This document shows, piece after piece, positions 21,339 through 30,660 of a stretch of DNA of 42,296 bases (positions within the stretch are counted from its first letter, which is position 1; the number at the start of each line of letters is the position of its first letter). Position numbers and translations under genes: made by a program. Source of the DNA: Orenia metallireducens (GTDB lineage: Bacteria; Bacillota; Halanaerobiia; Halobacteroidales; Halobacteroidaceae); NCBI RefSeq assembly GCF_001693735.1, contig NZ_LWDV01000002.1, forward strand, positions 1 through 42,296. Direction: 5' to 3'. The notes beneath the pieces are model-generated. The model worked only from the letters and a program-made list of their open reading frames with translations. It had not been told where the DNA came from and did no database searches.

Positions 21339-22420
21339 TTGAAAGAGAGAAATGAATTAATTGTTAAAGAGAACCATTTAATTGAAGGGTTTGTGGAAAT
21401 GACTAAGAATGAATATAAATTTATACTCTACTTAATCTCTAAAATAAAAAAAGATGATAAAAATTTCCGTAAACAAAAAGTTAGCGTTAAGGAATTTTCA
21501 GATGTCTTAGATTATAAGGGAGAAGGTTTATATCAATATATGAAAGAATTTGAGGATTCACTGATTAAAAAACATATTAGAATAGAGAATAGTGAAGGGG
21601 ATAGAGTAAAAATAAATTGGCTAAGTTATATTAGATACTTTAATGATGCTGGAACTTTAGATGTAGCCTTTAATAGTGATTTAGTACCTTATTTATTAAA
21701 CTTAGATACTAGATTTACTAAGTATCTTTTAAAGAATATAATTGGACTAAATAGTATCTACAGTATCAGAATTTATGAACTATTAAAGCAGTATGAAAAG
21801 ATAAAGAAGAGAGTAATAAAATTAGAAGATTTAAAAAAATGTTGGGTATAGCCGATGACCAATACAAGCTTTATGGCCATTTCAAGCAGAGGATCTTATT
21901 AAAAGCAAAAGAAGAGTTGGCTGAGAATGAAGATACAGATATTTATTTTGACTTTGAAAAACTTAAAAGGGGTAGAAAAGTAATAGCTATTAAATTTATT
22001 ATTAAAGAGAAAGAGATTCCGCAAAAAGAATTAGAGTTTGAAGAGTATCAAAAAAAGAAAGAGTATTTTCAAGAAACATTAGAGTTATTTAAACTCTTAC
22101 CTCAAGAAGAGCAGGTAGAGGCTCATAAGAAGGAGCTAGCAGAATTATTAAAGGAGCATAGTTATAAGTACTTAGAGGCTGATATTGAGTATGCTAAGCG
22201 TTTTGGGGTGAATAACTTCTTTGGATTTTTAAAGAGTTCCTGTGAAGGGGGACATTATTCTGCTGCTGAGCTAGAAAAAGAAGAGAGAAAAGAAGATTTA
22301 GCTAGACAGAAAGAGGAAGAGCTAAAGGAAAAGATACAGAAAAGGGCTCAAGAGAAGGCGATTGAGAAGTATGATAAACTGTCTACTAAAGAGATAGCAA
22401 AGAAAGAAGGTGGTAGATAA
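21339..22420 (+). CDS. Rep_3/RepB-type replication initiator, split by -1 frameshift
   Basis: Two frames encode one initiator. 21339-21851 (TTG start, AGGAGGGG upstream) gives the first winged-helix domain (ELIVKENHLIEGFVEMTKNE, YIRYFNDAGTLDVAFNSDLVP, IGLNSIYSIRIYELLKQYEK). The frame at 21839-22420 continues with LGIADDQYKLYGHFKQRIL, the second winged-helix start, then an acidic helical tail closely similar to the intact rep at 26231. The frames meet at A AAA AAA (21833-21839) read as TTA AAA AAA. A -1 slip there yields LKKMLGIADD, exactly the family pattern and about 359 residues. It is either programmed frameshifting, a homopolymer error, or a disabled gene. Confidence 0.8.
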
Positions 22421-22421
22421 G

Positions 22422-22736
22422 ATGCTTTCTAAGGATGAATTAAAATTATTAAGTGATAAAATAGTAAAGTTAATAAATGCTGAGAAGGTTATTCTTTTTG
22501 GTTCTTATGCTTCTGGTAATTCTGATGAACAGAGTGATATTGATCTTTGTATTATAACTAATGAGAAGAGAAGAAAGCTTGATATTATAAGAGAATTACG
22601 AAAGAATTTATCCTCTGATATAGATTATCCCCTTGATTTATTAGTATATAATGAAGATGAGTTTTATGAAAAAGCCAATTTAGAGAATAGTTTTGAAAAT
22701 CAGATTGCAGATAAGGGAGCTTATTTATATGGATAA
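22422..22736 (+). CDS. MNT-domain nucleotidyltransferase (antitoxin candidate)
   Basis: A minimal nucleotidyltransferase of 104 residues. The catalytic signature GSYASGNSDEQSDIDL fits GSX10DXD, with a third acidic residue in YPLDLLVY. In MNT/HEPN pairs the MNT protein typically neutralises the HEPN partner, in some cases by adenylylating it. I choose the ATG at 22422, which has AGAAGGTGG about 8 nt upstream. A GTG at 22410 is in frame but overlaps that site. Its stop overlaps the start of the HEPN gene, and it directly follows the split rep gene. Confidence 0.85.
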   Translation: MLSKDELKLLSDKIVKLINAEKVILFGSYASGNSDEQSDIDLCIITNEKRRKLDIIRELRKNLSSDIDYPLDLLVYNEDEFYEKANLENSFENQIADKGAYLYG

Positions 22737-23121
22737 AAGAACTATGATGGAGGAATGGTTTACAGTAACAGAGCAAGATTTAAAATCAGCTAAGTTTCTA
22801 AAAAAGATGCATCCAGCACCATTGGAAGTAATCTGTTATCATTGTCAGCAAAGTGCTGAAAAATATTTAAAGGGTTATATGATATTACAAGGTGAAAAAG
22901 TGATGAGAACCCATGACTTAGTTGTTTTAAATAAAAAATGTAGAAAATATAATGATGATTTTGTAAAAATTGAAGATGAATGTCTACGCTTAACTGATTA
23001 TGGAGTTAATGTGAGATATCCTTTTCATTTTGATTTAACAAAGGCAGATATGGAATTAGCTATAAAAGATATTGATAAAATTAAAGAGTTGGTGTTACAG
23101 AAAGTTAGAGAAAATAACTAA
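22729..23121 (+). CDS. HEPN-domain protein (toxin candidate)
   Basis: A 130-residue all-helical HEPN protein (PF05168-like): EWFTVTEQDLKSAKFL, then ICYHCQQSAEKYLKGYMI and RTHDLVVL, typical of HI0074-type partners of MNT proteins. The ATG at 22729 overlaps the MNT stop (ATGGATAA), which implies translational coupling. An upstream ATG at 22693 would overlap more and lacks a good ribosome site. The classic RNase motif RX4-6HXY is not evident (RYPFHF is the closest), so ribonuclease activity is uncertain. A terminator follows. Confidence 0.85.
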   Translation: MDKRTMMEEWFTVTEQDLKSAKFLKKMHPAPLEVICYHCQQSAEKYLKGYMILQGEKVMRTHDLVVLNKKCRKYNDDFVKIEDECLRLTDYGVNVRYPFHFDLTKADMELAIKDIDKIKELVLQKVRENN

Positions 23122-23706: not shown

Positions 23707-23735
23707 TTGACTAATTGAAATTTTTGCTATATAAT
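23707..23735 (+). promoter_or_regulatory. Sigma-A promoter of the leader-controlled gene
   Basis: TTGACT (23707-23712), a 17-bp spacer and TATAAT (23730-23735) give a near-consensus promoter. The same arrangement (TTGATT, 17 bp, TATAAT) occurs at the second copy on the minus strand at 28445-28417. Confidence 0.8.
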
Positions 23736-23741
23736 TAGAAC

Positions 23742-23988
23742 AAGTTTACTCAATTTTTGAACAAAATCATACAAAAAATTAAAAACTCCTGTTGGCGCAG
23801 GAGCTTTTAGAGTAAGGTTTCCCAAAAAACGCTTCGCAACCGTTTTGGAAACTTGAATATCAAATTTGTATCTCTATGATACCACAGAGATACAAAGCTT
23901 GTCAAGGATTTAGTCCTTGTAAAAAATGACAAGTGATATTAAAGTTTTTAGGAAACCTGCTCAGTAATTTTCTGAGGAGGTTATTTTG
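23742..23988 (+). ncRNA. Structured 5' leader (candidate attenuator), copy 1
   Basis: About 245 nt between promoter and start codon. Helices seen: P1 CTCCTG/CAGGAG (23786-23803) followed by TTTT; P2 GTTTCC+AAAACG / CGTTTT+GGAAAC (23817-23852) with loop CTTCGCAAC; P3 TTGTATCTCT/AGAGATACAA (23866-23895); P4 CTTGTCA/TGACAAG around CAAGGA/TCCTTG (23898-23933); and CTCAG/CTGAG (23960-23976) overlapping the ribosome site. AGGTTTCC (23815-23822) can pair either inside P2 or with GGAAACCT (23951-23958) next to the ribosome site. P1 and P3 differ in sequence but keep pairing in copy 2. Function and ligand are unknown. Confidence 0.6.
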
Positions 23989-25122
23989 ATGTCAATTATT
24001 GAAAGATTGCAAATAGAGATTAAAGATATAACTAAACAAGAACAATTAACTAATTTTCAAAGTAGAATAGCAGCTTTAAGAGAAGAAGATAAGATTAGTT
24101 CTAAAGAGGCTAAAGAGTTATCAGTAGCAGCAAAGGATTACTTTGAATTTATCCAAGAGTATAATAAATCAGATCTAGTTAGTCATGAGGCAGAAATTAA
24201 GGACCAAGAAGCCGAAAGAAAAGATTATAGTCAGTATACTGATCTGGAATTGGTAGAAGATGGGGCTTTTATGCCTTTTTTACAGTATCAATTAGCAATA
24301 CAGTGGAATCATAAGATGACTCAGACTATGTTTAATGTCTATTATGCTTTATGCTATCATGCTAATAGTATTGGAGAGGTTAATGGCTTAGCTACTAATG
24401 AGATAGCAGATTTTATTGGTCATAACTCAGATTCTAAAGTTGTACAAGCTATTGCTAAGTTAGAGAAGAGTAAGTTGATCAGTGTTAATCGTGATCAGGT
24501 GATTAACTCCTATGCAATTGCAGGGTATAAGCAAGCCATTGTCAAAACTGGCAAAGGTGGCTATGTGATGCCTTTAGAGATGTTCCAAAAGCTACAAAGT
24601 TATAACCTCAAGCATTATCGATTGGTCTGGTATTTGGTAGCTCATAAGCACCATATGCCTAATAACACAGGTAAGACTGGGATTAAACAGGCTACCTTAA
24701 AGAATATCACTAATGCTGTGAGTTTTAAGGAGCTGCGACAATTAATCAAAGATTTAGCAGGGGTTATCTTAAAAAGTGTAGATAATTTCTGGACTAAGAT
24801 TAAACGAGTATTAATGAAGTCTTTAAGATTAACCTTTAACTTTATTGAGTTAGGAATCGGTATTGTAGAGGATGCTATCGGAGAGGTAGAGTCTCATTAT
24901 CTCTATGATCGAATCAAAGACATTTTGATTAATATGAGAATTGATAGTACTAAGAAAAATATTAAAAAGGTGATTAAGAGAATTGATAAGGTTTCAGAGT
25001 TTGCCTTTAATGAAGTGGAGAGTCTAGCTAGACAGTCTCATATCTATTCTAAATATAATACAGTTAATTGTTTGTTGAAACTCTTAGAAAGTAAAAATAA
25101 CGCTTTAAGAGTTGAGAATTGA
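23989..25122 (+). CDS. Unrecognised plasmid protein with winged-helix-like domain
   Basis: 377 residues, not assigned to a family. The N-terminal 80 residues are helical and charged (IERLQIEIKDITKQEQLTN). Residues about 105-165 (TQTMFNVYYALCYHAN, LATNEIADFIGHNSDSKVV, KLEKSKLISVNRD) look like a winged helix of the initiator or GntR/DnaD sort. The C-terminal third is basic and amphipathic helical. ATG at 23989 with GAGGAGG 8 nt upstream. A TTG just before is less likely. Expression seems governed by the long leader. Lying between two rep loci, it may act in replication or copy control, but this is inference. A deletion derivative is at 27871-28171. Confidence 0.7.
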   Translation: MSIIERLQIEIKDITKQEQLTNFQSRIAALREEDKISSKEAKELSVAAKDYFEFIQEYNKSDLVSHEAEIKDQEAERKDYSQYTDLELVEDGAFMPFLQYQLAIQWNHKMTQTMFNVYYALCYHANSIGEVNGLATNEIADFIGHNSDSKVVQAIAKLEKSKLISVNRDQVINSYAIAGYKQAIVKTGKGGYVMPLEMFQKLQSYNLKHYRLVWYLVAHKHHMPNNTGKTGIKQATLKNITNAVSFKELRQLIKDLAGVILKSVDNFWTKIKRVLMKSLRLTFNFIELGIGIVEDAIGEVESHYLYDRIKDILINMRIDSTKKNIKKVIKRIDKVSEFAFNEVESLARQSHIYSKYNTVNCLLKLLESKNNALRVEN

Positions 25123-25989: not shown

Positions 25990-26190
25990 AATAGTTGTTG
26001 TATATCTTTTATATCTTATAAATCTTTAGGGTTGGACAAACCCTATTGTAGCAAGGGATTGCAGGAAAATATAACTACAAATTAAGGAGATATAGCTACA
26101 TATTAAGGAAATATGACTACAGATTAAGGGGATACAACTACAAATTAAGGAGTTACAACTACATATCATTATTGTATATGTAGTTGTATT
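25990..26190 (+). other. Iteron-type plasmid origin
   Basis: A GACAAACCCT hairpin element (about 26031-26046) is followed by five direct repeats of consensus CTACAAATTAAGGAGATAT with CTACA starting at 26075, 26096, 26117, 26138 and 26159, exactly 21 bp (two helical turns) apart. An inverted partner ATATGTAGTTG (26176-26186) pairs with CAACTACATAT (26156-26166), the usual dimer operator by which such initiators repress themselves. The intact rep gene starts 45 bp later. Confidence 0.85.
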
Positions 26191-26230: not shown

Positions 26231-27442
26231 ATGAAGAAGGAGATGTTAAATAAGCCCAATCAATTAATAAGTATTGTTCCTGAACAGAAGGTCACCACTA
26301 CCCAAAGAAAAGCATATAATAGTTTTTTAAAGTATGCACAAAGAAAATTAAAGTTTGAAGATTATAAAGAGAACATATTCAAGATTCCCTATAGTGAATT
26401 ACATAAAAGAGCTAATCTCAAAAATAAGAATACTGAGTATATATATCAAGAGTTAGAGGGGTTAATGAAGACTACTGTTAAGATAGTTGATAAGGAAAAT
26501 CCAGATAATTGGAAAGCATTTACCTTATTAAGTTACATTGAAAGAAAGGATAATTTTTACTATTATGAATTGAACCATTTTATTATTAATGCATTAAAGG
26601 AGCAACAATTTTTTACCCCTTTGAATTTGATGATGATAAAATCTTTGGATAGCCAATATTCAATAATTTTTTATGAATTAGCTATTAGATATCAAAAATA
26701 CAAGATACCAAAGATGAGTATTGAAGAGGTTAGGAAATTGACCAATACTAAAAGTGAATATAAGCGATTTTATAATTTTAGAAAAAGAGTTTTAGATGTC
26801 GCCTGTGAGGAAATATCGAAAAAAACTGATATTAAACTCTCCTATATTACTGAAAAGAGGGGCAGAAGAATAGCTTTTATTGATTTTAAAATTGAGAGAA
26901 AGAAAGAAGAAATACCTGTTGAGATTAAAGTTAAAGAGCAGGAATATTCAGCAGAGGTCTTAGGATTATTTAATCTATTACCTAAAGTTGAACAGGTAGA
27001 GAGTAATAAAAGAGAATTAGCTAAATTACTAGAAGAGCATAGTTTTAGATATTTGAAGGCTGACATTGAGTATGCTAAAGAGTCTAATCCTGATAATTTT
27101 ATAGGCTTTCTCAAGGCATCTTGTCAGAATGCTCATTACTCTAGTGTTGAAATTGAGAAGGAAGAGAAGCAGAAAGAGTTAGCTAAACAAAGGGAAGAAG
27201 CTGAGATGAAGAGAAAGGAGCTTGAAGAAAAAATAGAGAAGAAGGCTAGAGCAAAGGCTATGGAGCGGTATAAAGTTTTATCAGATAGTGAGCTAGAAAG
27301 GTATGAGCAGGAATATAGAAAGATGGCTAAGCTGGTACCAAAAAGCATAAGACCAGCTAAGAAAGAGTATATAATTGGATCTTTGGAGGATAAGTTTAAA
27401 GAAGAATTAAGAGATTTGCTAGGAAATGATTTCTTAGTATAG
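26231..27442 (+). CDS. Rep_3/RepB-type plasmid replication initiator
   Basis: Binds the upstream iterons to open the origin and, as a dimer, probably represses its own gene. 403 residues: first winged helix in the N-terminal part ([38 protein letters not shown]), the linking segment [20 protein letters not shown]-like (seen as [20 protein letters not shown]), and a second winged helix at [21 protein letters not shown] long K/E-rich helical tail follows, shared with the split rep at 21339. ATG with TAGGAGGAG upstream. This is the only initiator here with an uninterrupted frame, so probably the active one. Confidence 0.9.
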
Positions 27443-27743
27443 CATTAAGAACTATTAAATGAATATAGATCTGTGTAATAGATATATCAGCATGTCCCAA
27501 AGCTTTTCTAACCTTCTCTAGATTATGACACTCCCTTAATAAATCTGTTGCATAAGTGTGTCGTAAGGTGTGGGGCGTAACTTTCTTTTCTTGATAGCTT
27601 TTATCTAATTTATTTCCATTATCATCTCGATAATATTTGGTAACTTCCTCTTGGATTCCTGCCTTTTTAGCATATTTATAGATCATCTTTCTCATATTTA
27701 CGTGATTTAATCGATTACCTGTTAAACTAGTAAATACTAATCC
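27396..27743 (-). pseudogene. C-terminal fragment of a tyrosine recombinase
   Basis: The frame includes [20 protein letters not shown], then [36 protein letters not shown]. That is box II of integrases: HxxR(H), the GH pair and the nucleophilic Tyr in IYIH. The N-terminal DNA-binding half is missing, a stop lies upstream of 27743, and the tail runs through the 3' end of the rep gene, so the junction is a rearrangement scar. Confidence 0.8.
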
Positions 27744-27870: not shown

Positions 27871-28171
27871 ATCGTAAAGATTGATTTTTACTCTCTAAGA
27901 GCTTCAATAAGCATTGGTGATATTCTTCAAAGTAGACTGCTTAATCCCACCCTTGTCCATATTATTAGGCATATGATGTATGGGCTACTAGATAACAGAC
28001 CAAAAAGGGCATAAATGCCCCATCTTTTATCAGTTCAGCATCCCTATACTGGCTATAATCTCTGATTTTATTCTCTTCTAGCAAAGTTGCTAATCTGCCT
28101 TGAAAGTTAATCAATTGTTTGTGATTATTTATATCTTGAATTTCTGCTTTTAGTCTTTTAGTTATTGACAT
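27871..28171 (-). pseudogene. Deletion derivative of the winged-helix-like gene
   Basis: Starts at ATG 28171 (MSITKRLKAEIQDINNHKQL) after CTCAAAATAATGAGGAGG. It follows the gene at 23989 for about 40 residues, jumps to DYSQYRDAELIKDGAFMPFL, then to CYLVAH where a stop ends the frame at 27965. Out-of-frame matches to two later regions of the full gene continue to about 27871. At least three internal deletions therefore removed most of the protein, while the promoter and leader are preserved. Confidence 0.8.
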
Positions 28172-28410
28172 AAAAAATAACCTCCTCATTATTTTGAGCA
28201 GGTTTCCTAAACTTAAATATTCTTTGTCAGTTTTTAACAGCAATTAACCTCTTGTTGTATTTATCTGATATTATATAAGTACAAATTTGATATTTAAGTT
28301 TCCAAAACGGGTGCGAATCGTTTTTTGGAAACCTACTTTAAAAACTCCGTGTATCCAGCACGGTGTTTTTAATTTTTTTGGATATTTTTGTTCAAAAACT
28401 AAGTAAACTT
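28172..28410 (-). ncRNA. Structured 5' leader, copy 2
   Basis: Same order of elements as 23742-23988: a P1 hairpin CCGTG/CACGG with T tail, P2 with identical stem arms GTTTCC+AAAACG / CGTTTT+GGAAAC and loop ATTCGCACC (28298-28332), P3 with TTGTA..TTAT / ATAA..TACAA, and CTCA/TGAG at the ribosome site. AGGTTTCC (28334-28327) and GGAAACCT (28207-28200) again give an 8-bp alternative pairing. The downstream gene is dead, so this copy may survive as an RNA or is a recent relic. Confidence 0.55.
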
Positions 28411-28879: not shown

Positions 28880-29503
28880 CTATTGAATCTCTGCATTTTC
28901 AAATAAAAAGGTCAGTGCCTCTTCAACAATAAAAGACTTATCCTGCTCTGTCCTATCTGCTACACTATCTAGCTTTTCAATCATCTTTTCCTTTAAATAA
29001 TAGGTTCTTCTAACCTTCTTCTTATCCTTCTGATTAGGAATAATCAACTTAGTAGGATCAAGGTCTATTGGAGAATCCTCTTTCTTTACTAATTTTGCTC
29101 CAATATCAGGTTGGTTTAAAAAGTAAGTCAAAGCTAGTTCAACAAGATAAGACTTATTATTACCAGTCTTCCTAGCAAAGCTATCTATCTCATTAACGAT
29201 ACTCTTTCTTAAATAATATGTTCTTCTAATCTCTTCATTATTATCTCCACTATCGATATTATTTGTTACCTTACTTTCATTCTTCTTAGTAGTATTCTCA
29301 TCTTTATTGTAAACTTTATTATTAATAGTATTATTTAATTTATTCTTTTCTTTATTCTCTTCTTTAGTACTCTCTACTTCCTTATTTTCTTGATTTTCTA
29401 CCACTTCTTGATCTTTACTACTACCCTTCTCTTCCTTCAATTTATCAGCATTACTCTTCATCTTACTCTTTAAATTATTAAAGAAATCATTCTCCTTAGT
29501 CAA
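28880..29503 (-). CDS. ParA partner with two ribbon-helix-helix domains
   Basis: About 207 residues. A disordered, K/E/N-rich N-terminal half leads to two homologous segments: RRTYYLRKSIVNEIDSFARK...KSYLVELALTYFL (about 100-137) and RRTYYLKEKMIEKLDSVADR...KSFIVEEALTFLF. Each has the strand-helix-helix look of an RHH/omega-type DNA-binding unit. As the gene overlaps or abuts the 3' end of parA, it should be the centromere-binding protein of a type Ib-like system. I choose TTG at 29503 (GAGGGTGG 6 nt upstream). TTG at 29521 adds six residues. Confidence 0.75.
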   Translation of the reverse strand: MTKENDFFNNLKSKMKSNADKLKEEKGSSKDQEVVENQENKEVESTKEENKEKNKLNNTINNKVYNKDENTTKKNESKVTNNIDSGDNNEEIRRTYYLRKSIVNEIDSFARKTGNNKSYLVELALTYFLNQPDIGAKLVKKEDSPIDLDPTKLIIPNQKDKKKVRRTYYLKEKMIEKLDSVADRTEQDKSFIVEEALTFLFENAEIQ

Positions 29504-30248
29504 TCTCAACCACCCTCTCAATTATAGGATATAGCTGCTTCTGTGCCTCTTCATCATACTCAAAGATCGTCTTACCCTGTTTAGTAGCCTCAGTAATCTT
29601 AATTCTTCGATAAACAGGATTTGTCACTATCTCTTGGCCTGCAAAACTCTCCTCTAACATCTTCAGATTCTCTCTGCCTTCATTGGTTCTAGAATCATAC
29701 ATATTAGGAATGATCAATTTAATCTTAGCAAAATCCAATCTTAAATCCTCTAAATAGTCAAAGATAGTCGCCAGCCCATCGATAGCAGGTATCTCTAGCT
29801 GCACAGGAATAAAGATATAATCAATAAAGAACAATATCGCACTATTGATGATACTTCTTGAAGGACTACAATCAAAGATCACATAATCATAATCCATCTC
29901 CTCTAAGCCTGCCAATTTCTCATCAAGTAAGGTAGTTAGAAACATCGCATTATTATTAAACTCCTTCTCGATAATCTCATACTTGCTATTAGGAAGTAAG
30001 TCTAAATTCTCTCTAGCCTCAATAATACACTCCTTAATATTAGCCGCTGAATGAGGATTAATTAAATCATAAAAACTCTTCCTCTCTTGATTCCTATCAA
30101 TCCCTAACATTAAAGAACAATCATTCTGTGAATCCAAATCAATTAATAAAACCTTATAGTCAACCTTAGCTAAAGCATGAGCAATATTTACTGCCAATGT
30201 AGACTTACCAACGCCACCCTTATTGTTATAAAAGGCTATCTTCTTCAT
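29496..30248 (-). CDS. parA: ParA-type plasmid partition ATPase
   Basis: A Walker-type ATPase that moves plasmid cargo over the nucleoid. 250 residues with deviant Walker A KKIAFYNNKGGVGKSTLAV at the N-terminus, Walker A' VLLIDLDSQND, Walker B YVIFDCSPSRS and the late IIPNMYDSRT segment. No N-terminal HTH, hence Ib/Soj-like size. Its end overlaps the RHH partner's start region, so the two are coupled. A repeat-rich stretch upstream is the likely centromere/operator. Confidence 0.93.
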   Translation of the reverse strand: MKKIAFYNNKGGVGKSTLAVNIAHALAKVDYKVLLIDLDSQNDCSLMLGIDRNQERKSFYDLINPHSAANIKECIIEARENLDLLPNSKYEIIEKEFNNNAMFLTTLLDEKLAGLEEMDYDYVIFDCSPSRSIINSAILFFIDYIFIPVQLEIPAIDGLATIFDYLEDLRLDFAKIKLIIPNMYDSRTNEGRENLKMLEESFAGQEIVTNPVYRRIKITEATKQGKTIFEYDEEAQKQLYPIIERVVEID

Positions 30249-30660
30249 CTAATCCCTCCTATGTATTGTTATGTTAGTATTTCAATAAATTTTACAATAA
30301 TAAATAAATAATAAACAACATAATATTTGTAATAAATATTAAAATAATATTTATCATAATATAAACAATCTCATATATAATATTAATTACAATAAATTTT
30401 GTATAAACTTAACAATAAAATTTACAATTAACTAGAACATAAACATTAACATTGATTGTAGAATAAAAACTACAATAAACTTTAACATCGATGTTACAAT
30501 AATAAGGATAATAAGTTTTAGAATTGATGTTACAATTATAATATTAATTAAAATAAATTTCAACATTTGATCCCAATAATATCTATCATAAAGATAACAA
30601 TATCACCTTTGAAACAGAATCATATTTTTGATCTAATTTATTTTTTTACTTTTTTTCTGC
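30249..30660. promoter_or_regulatory. Repeat-rich parA upstream region, candidate parS
   Basis: AT-rich (>85% by eye) with recurring TACAATAA/TTACAATTA units, AACATCGATGTT (palindrome near 30485-30496) and imperfect relatives (AACATTGATTGT, GAATTGATGTT) at loose intervals between about 30360 and 30570. RHH-type partners usually bind such short repeats in front of parA. No coding sequence seen up to 30968. Confidence 0.5.

Follow-up and report, generated by a model that had tools for sequence, protein, structure and literature searches.

In the repZ mRNA of IncI/IncB plasmids a distant upstream RNA segment pairs beside the ribosome site and turns translation on, and an antisense RNA prevents this pairing. 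In pSK41, a staphylococcal RepA_N plasmid, the antisense RNAI (approx. 83 nt, two stem-loops and a 5' tail) is complementary to the rep leader approximately 100 nt upstream of the start, and its binding has been proposed to shut the ribosome site in a hairpin (PMC5703833). The RNAI/repC system of pT181, a Rep_trans plasmid, comprises an 87-nt antisense RNA and a pre-emptor arm; this arm pairs with the 5' side of a terminator-like hairpin that precedes the start codon and, by prediction, contains the ribosome site (PMC5703833). In the Inc18 plasmid pIP501 the antisense RNAIII is directed against the long repR leader, and relatives of this plasmid carry an inverted repeat and a T-tract just before the rep start (PMC5703833).

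What is very probably a copy-number control region of this general kind, namely the leader and gene of a plasmid initiator (rep) controlled via an antisense RNA, is found in Orenia metallireducens, on contig NZ_LWDV01000002.1 (GCF_001693735.1), of which positions 1 to 42,296 of the forward strand were analysed (42,296 nt, hereafter the window). By analogy, the best reading is that the leader works like those of pT181 and pSK41, with unrelated parts; by initiator family the locus is a member of neither. Production of the antisense RNA, its inhibitory action and the role of the protein in starting replication are inferred. The features of the locus are as follows.

23707-23735, plus strand: sense promoter of copy A, TTGACT-17-TATAAT, promoter score 11/12.
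23742-23988, plus strand: leader of the rep-like mRNA, copy A, homologous in nine leaders, with the layout matched in L016 and L017.
23773-23869, minus strand: predicted antisense RNA, about 95 nt, two stem-loops (P2' and the P1' terminator) and a 5' tail.
23786-23803, no strand assigned: P1 hairpin CTCCTG/CAGGAG, on the minus strand the predicted antisense RNA terminator, followed by TTTTTAATTTTTT.
23815-23822, plus strand: arm a, AGGTTTCC, pre-emptor-like, predicted to pair with arm b (local P2) or with arm c (long range).
23823-23846, plus strand: upper P2 stem-loop (CAAAAAACGCTTCGCAACCGTTTT) with the variable, putative target loop.
23847-23854, plus strand: arm b, GGAAACTT, local partner of arm a from sequence and computed folds.
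23850-23861, plus strand: 5' arm of helix X, AACTTGAATATC, with its partner GATATTAAAGTT at 23935-23946.
23866-23895, no strand assigned: P3 hairpin TTGTATCTCT/AGAGATACAA, overlapping the antisense promoter.
23876-23905, minus strand: antisense promoter TTGACA-18-TATCAT with TG before the -10, 11/12, inside P3.
23951-23958, plus strand: arm c, GGAAACCT, partner of arm a, the CCT of which also pairs with the ribosome site.
23956-23980, plus strand: ribosome-site hairpin CCTgCTCAG/CTGAGgAGG, closing the ribosome site (23976-23980), with a U-rich tract after it.
23989-25122, plus strand: rep-like gene, 377 aa, tandem winged-helix initiator fold in a structural model, without a clear family match.
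28172-28410, minus strand: copy B leader, with arms a and c retained and the antisense -35 gone.
27904-28171, minus strand: copy B gene remnant, a pseudogene with deletions and stops (one TGA, two TAG, three separate pieces).

The two leaders that the original prediction had placed at 23742-23988 (copy A) and, on the minus strand, at 28172-28410 (copy B) are both found at these positions, are 80% identical and share, as had been described, the sense promoter, the helix order P1, P2, P3 and the ribosome-site hairpin; no third leader copy was found in the genome. The mRNA start of copy A is predicted at approximately 23742; the sense promoter of copy B (TTGATT-17-TATAAT) scores 10/12, and scores of 10-11/12 were obtained for the 10 full-length leaders of intact genes. 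P1 had been said to stay paired with changed bases, and both CTCCTG/CAGGAG (A) and CCGTG/CACGG (B) are present; P2 with the loop core TTCGCA recurs in both leaders. The claimed P3 pairing is intact in copy A and is interrupted by one C x A mismatch in copy B. The pseudogene status of copy B and the opposite-strand signals at P1 and P3 had both been missed. A C-terminal remnant of a phage-type integrase (27396-27695) lies between a Rep_3 gene and copy B.

Relatives of the window protein, with 22-76% identity, come from two further Orenia genomes, three additional genera of the order and two contigs in a viral collection, giving 11 readable leaders of intact genes (copy A, L004, L005, L008, L009, L011, L013 and L016-L019). 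The parts follow the same order in all of them but L011: sense promoter, P1, P2 with arm a, P3, arm c, ribosome-site hairpin and start codon. PLSDB contained no relatives, and the exact pattern of arm c and ribosome site, searched in 398 genomes of the phylum (without G003, G006 and G007), returned only the two copies of the window. A profile search of 149 phylum genomes gave, outside the order, one weak match, in G121 (E 7e-4); within the class there was also one weak match, in G211 (E 1.6e-4), and among the viral contigs only the two records already known as relatives. The G121 match (L036, G121:C63:1828-2094) lies in a 359-aa frame and is a possible distant relative. A literature search on Orenia plasmid replication found nothing.

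The long-range pairing of arms a and c, an 8-bp complementarity (AGGTTTCC/GGAAACCT), had been noted for both copies, where it is present, and it is retained in nine further leaders. An 8-bp match is not unusual in copy A alone (71/300 shuffles), so that the case for the pairing rests on the homologues. Over 11 leaders (copy B included, L011 excluded), 88/88 cells are paired, against a mean of 71 when partners are randomly permuted, and 18 of 20,000 permutations were as good as the observed set; the count favours L016 and L017 because their register was picked by the longest helix. The helix reaches 11 bp in L017, a length attained by 0/300 shuffles, and extends to 12 bp in L004, L005 and L009 (0-2/300 shuffles). 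Compensating changes are seen in L008 (AGGTTCCC/GGGAACCT), L016 (AAGGCCTCT/AGAGGCCTT) and L017 (CTAGGGAGGCC/GGCCTCCCTAG), and the ninth pair is T-A in L004 and L005, G-C in L009 and L019, and A-T in L013. Arms a and c are missing only in L011, the leader of which is different and shorter. Thus, the GGTTTCC-GGAAACC complementarity, on the maintenance of which the original prediction had made its proposal depend, held in the homologues except L011, and the competing folds, with the attenuator or riboregulator logic drawn from them, are supported by the homologues and by the compensating changes. As to what is regulated and by what, the switch logic stood, the regulator (the predicted antisense RNA) had been missed and the regulated gene, initiator-like, had not been named.

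Nested within the a:c pairing is helix X (AACTTAAATATC/GATATTTAAGTT), which has one mismatch in copy A and is a perfect helix of 9-12 bp in copy B, L008, L018 and L019, where it is the longest complement; it appears in several minimum-energy folds. At this position L016 has, by eye, CCATCATT/AATGATGG instead, and a counterpart was not found in L017.

On the opposite strand, the antisense promoter of copy A has a score reached by 0/1000 shuffles and is one of the top two sites by score in the 42-kb window. A promoter of this sort, with 10.5-12 of 12 points, occurs in each of the 11 leaders of intact genes; its score is reached by 0-7/1000 shuffles per leader, and it is the best or joint best on its strand. 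The predicted antisense start precedes the start codon by 102-138 nt (by 54 nt in L011). Among the 12 leaders examined, loss of this promoter is limited to copy B, in front of the broken gene, where the -35 is lost and the score of 8.5 is reached by 420/1000 shuffles. A minus-strand terminator (23809-23780; shuffles, mean 0.1) coincides with P1 of copy A, and a P1 hairpin followed by a T-run on the antisense strand is found in 12/12 leaders, with a one-base bulge or mismatch in L008, L018 and L011. P1 was also considered as a sense-strand terminator, that is, as a classical attenuator; this was rejected because the sense U-run 3' of P1 is not conserved (it is absent in L008, L013 and L016-L019) and the antisense-strand run is kept. 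The antisense RNA of copy A, modelled as 102 nt, has a minimum free energy of -26.9 (z -3.3); across leaders the predicted RNAs are 85-131 nt long, mostly consist of a 5' tail and two stem-loops and, where scored, have z values of -2.7 to -4.7. The predicted RNA is complementary to P1, P2 and arm a. From these sequence features, the regulator of the leader is predicted to be an antisense RNA running from its promoter in P3 to its terminator at P1.

L011 (L011:850-1372) is a relative with a much shorter leader, in which an apparent leader ORF (ATGCGATTATTTTC...) is seen and which retains the antisense promoter (TTGACT-18-TATAAT) and the terminator; control in this case is perhaps through a leader peptide.

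L004 and L005 lie on separate contigs of a single genome. As far as arm a, and again from arm c onwards, the two leaders are 95% identical; on the loop side of P2 the figure falls to 48%, which makes P2 the most diverged part of the leader in this pair; from sequence, this is what would be expected of an incompatibility determinant or a recognition element between co-resident plasmids. In the pair L008 and L018, the stretch from promoter to P1 is 86% identical and the ribosome-site region 95%, and identity falls to 44% over the first 60 coding bases; this likeness of leaders without likeness of proteins suggests that leader modules may be exchanged.

In computed thermodynamics, blocking the stretch covered by the antisense RNA lowered the probability of an open ribosome site 10^3-10^5-fold in 11/11 leaders (copies A and B and nine others, L011 left out). 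A scan with 30-nt blocks placed the effect mainly at arm a and its close surroundings, and at the stretch before arm c, and blocks over P3 had little effect in most leaders. The minimum-energy fold of copy A has the local P2 and a closed ribosome site, so that for its open state the computation gives a low probability (log10 P about -3.3), and the unblocked open state is rare in L016 and L017 too. Arm c shares CCU with the ribosome-site hairpin, the mutual exclusion expected of a pre-emptor type of arrangement. In the preferred reading, the rep mRNA would start at approximately 23742 and, without inhibitor, arm a (AGGUUUCC) would pair with arm c (GGAAACCU) just 5' of the ribosome site, removing CCU from the hairpin that masks this site, so that Rep would be made. 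An antisense RNA of approximately 95 nt, started from the promoter in P3 and ended at P1, the concentration of which would track plasmid copy number, would bind the P2 loop and spread until arm a is no longer available. With arm a occupied, the ribosome-site hairpin would close and Rep synthesis would be switched off by the hidden ribosome site, perhaps with early termination at the hairpin and U-tract as a second contribution.

We favour a hidden ribosome site as the output, with termination possible. With the same antisense control, however, the output may be transcription attenuation, the ribosome-site hairpin and its U-tract forming a terminator, so that antisense binding would end the rep mRNA just 5' of the start codon; this is the mode of pT181 and pIP501 (PMC5703833), and is a less likely alternative here. 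The hairpin of copy A was scored as terminator-like on the plus strand, and TTATTTTTTATG, TTTTTTATATG or a similar run follows the hairpin in leaders of the same type, but the stem in copy A is short (5 bp, a mismatch and 3 bp), the U-tracts are interrupted, and pSK41, with a similar layout, hides the ribosome site instead (PMC5703833). It is very unlikely that the leader does without an antisense RNA and is a cis-acting attenuator or riboswitch-like element responding to a ligand, a protein or translation: the two competing and conserved pairings would suit it, but an antisense promoter found in 11/11 leaders of intact genes and lost before the pseudogene would go unexplained, as would the opposite-facing terminator, and the P2 loop is variable, which is the opposite of a ligand pocket. 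Hardly credible is the view that P3 acts at the DNA level, as an operator bound by Rep or some other repressor, with the RNA pairing as a by-product, since, although P3 is palindromic and sits between two promoters, its sequence differs strongly between leaders and arms a and c would have no explanation.

Copy B retains arms a and c in spite of its dead gene, which counts against the preferred reading, antisense control of an initiator gene, as do the rare open states computed for copy A, L016 and L017, the presence in L011 of the antisense promoter and terminator without the two arms, and the Rep_3 genes carried by the window and some relatives. The leader of copy B may still be transcribed and serve as a decoy soaking up the antisense RNA of copy A, in keeping with its sense promoter, arm a and loop core TTCGCA and with its lack of both an antisense promoter and a working gene; a relic would look much alike, however, and B differs from A by 27% in the promoter-to-P1 part; the decoy is an improbable explanation.

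The product of the downstream gene is, from its structural model, most likely a replication initiator. It matches no family in Pfam or NCBIfam, and its relatives give weak, scattered family matches only. RepA_N did not match the window protein at E up to 1 and is absent from the 25 most-matched families of 11 members; no Pfam match to Rep_trans was found for the window protein, nor to Rep3_N/Rep3_C, and a Rep_3-type Pfam match was obtained for 1/11 members only, at E 0.18. In the AlphaFold model (mean pLDDT 79, 11 sequences), residues 89-291 share the fold of RepE (mini-F), Pi (R6K) and RctB, with which they align over approximately 185 residues at Z 7.6-9.7 and approximately 11% identity. The call rests on the VIA-align rows, of which the first 45 are plasmid-type initiators and the next, unrelated, has Z 6.0. 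Foldseek alone gave weak, mixed matches, and a profile search of PDB sequences found nothing. In addition to this low identity, the Orenia protein is unlike RepE, Pi and RctB in having no Rep_3 Pfam match and no iterons beside its gene (23989-25122), where none were found.

The surroundings of the gene are plasmid-like in several respects. ParA is encoded near the gene in the window, L013 and L017, and the contigs of L016, L018 and L019 encode partition proteins of the actin type. No Rep_3 gene is present on the contigs, which may be incomplete, of L016, L017, L018 and L019, and Rep_3 genes are also found in the window and in some relatives, where the rep-like protein need not be the sole initiator. 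Within the window, 4.5 copies of an iteron-like 21-bp tandem repeat (26069-26163) lie directly 5' of a Rep_3 gene (26231-27442), and the plasmid thus seems to carry a second, iteron-type replicon. Another Rep_3 gene (21339-22420) extends over two overlapping ORFs (Rep3_N and Rep3_C) and is apparently a frameshifted relic; together with copy B, it hints at a plasmid that was fused or rearranged. A 36-bp repeat in 2.7 copies (30439-30536), perhaps the partition site, lies upstream of the ParA gene (29496-30248). In three loci a pair of small genes that by eye resembles a nucleotidyltransferase/HEPN toxin-antitoxin pair is found upstream of the leader (window 22410-23121, L004:1928-2639 and L013:205-916).

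When the predicted control of the locus is set beside the described systems, pSK41 is alike in its two-stem-loop antisense RNA with a 5' tail and in the hairpin closing the ribosome site, and unlike in its initiator (unrelated, as judged from the missing RepA_N Pfam match), in its RNA (that of Orenia has no Rfam match), in the helix X and P3 placed between the two arms in Orenia and in the class of its host. With pT181 the locus shares the pre-emptor arm and the terminator-like hairpin with the ribosome site, but has a RepE/Pi-like winged-helix fold in place of a rolling-circle initiator, and termination is only a possibility in Orenia. An antisense RNA against a long rep leader is shared with pIP501, and the inverted repeat with a T-tract just before the rep start with relatives of that plasmid; pIP501 however has a Cop repressor and a PriCT_1 initiator, whereas no cop was recognized among the translated neighbouring ORFs in Orenia. 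The loop-to-ribosome-site pairing of L017 has the form found in IncI/IncB repZ, unlike the pairing in the window, which is nested around helix X and is not a pseudoknot of the repZ type; a leader peptide was not noticed. A known Rfam leader or ctRNA family was rejected, as no Rfam 15 match reached its gathering score and a permissive search gave only matches far below the gathering scores. The earlier statement that no described class has such a layout is therefore correct for the sequence and is not so for the logic, given the likeness to pT181 and pSK41 (PMC5703833).

The control principle is thus known from other plasmids, and the families of the replication protein and of the RNA appear undescribed in the libraries searched. 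A wider proposal, which at present seems rather unlikely, is that of an unnamed initiator class with its own antisense-controlled leader family, the modules of which would be exchanged between replicons, with dead copies such as B acting as decoys that tune the antisense RNA of the live copy. The locus provides a candidate copy-number control mechanism for plasmids of the order to which Orenia and its relatives belong, and points to a replication-protein family missed by current libraries; its control region, compact and with natural covariation, could be used to test how antisense RNAs set incompatibility. Antisense switches of the pT181/pSK41 type may, as this case suggests, recur in combination with unrelated initiators. 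If the role in copy-number control is true, the plasmid would count its own copies through a short RNA made from the opposite strand.
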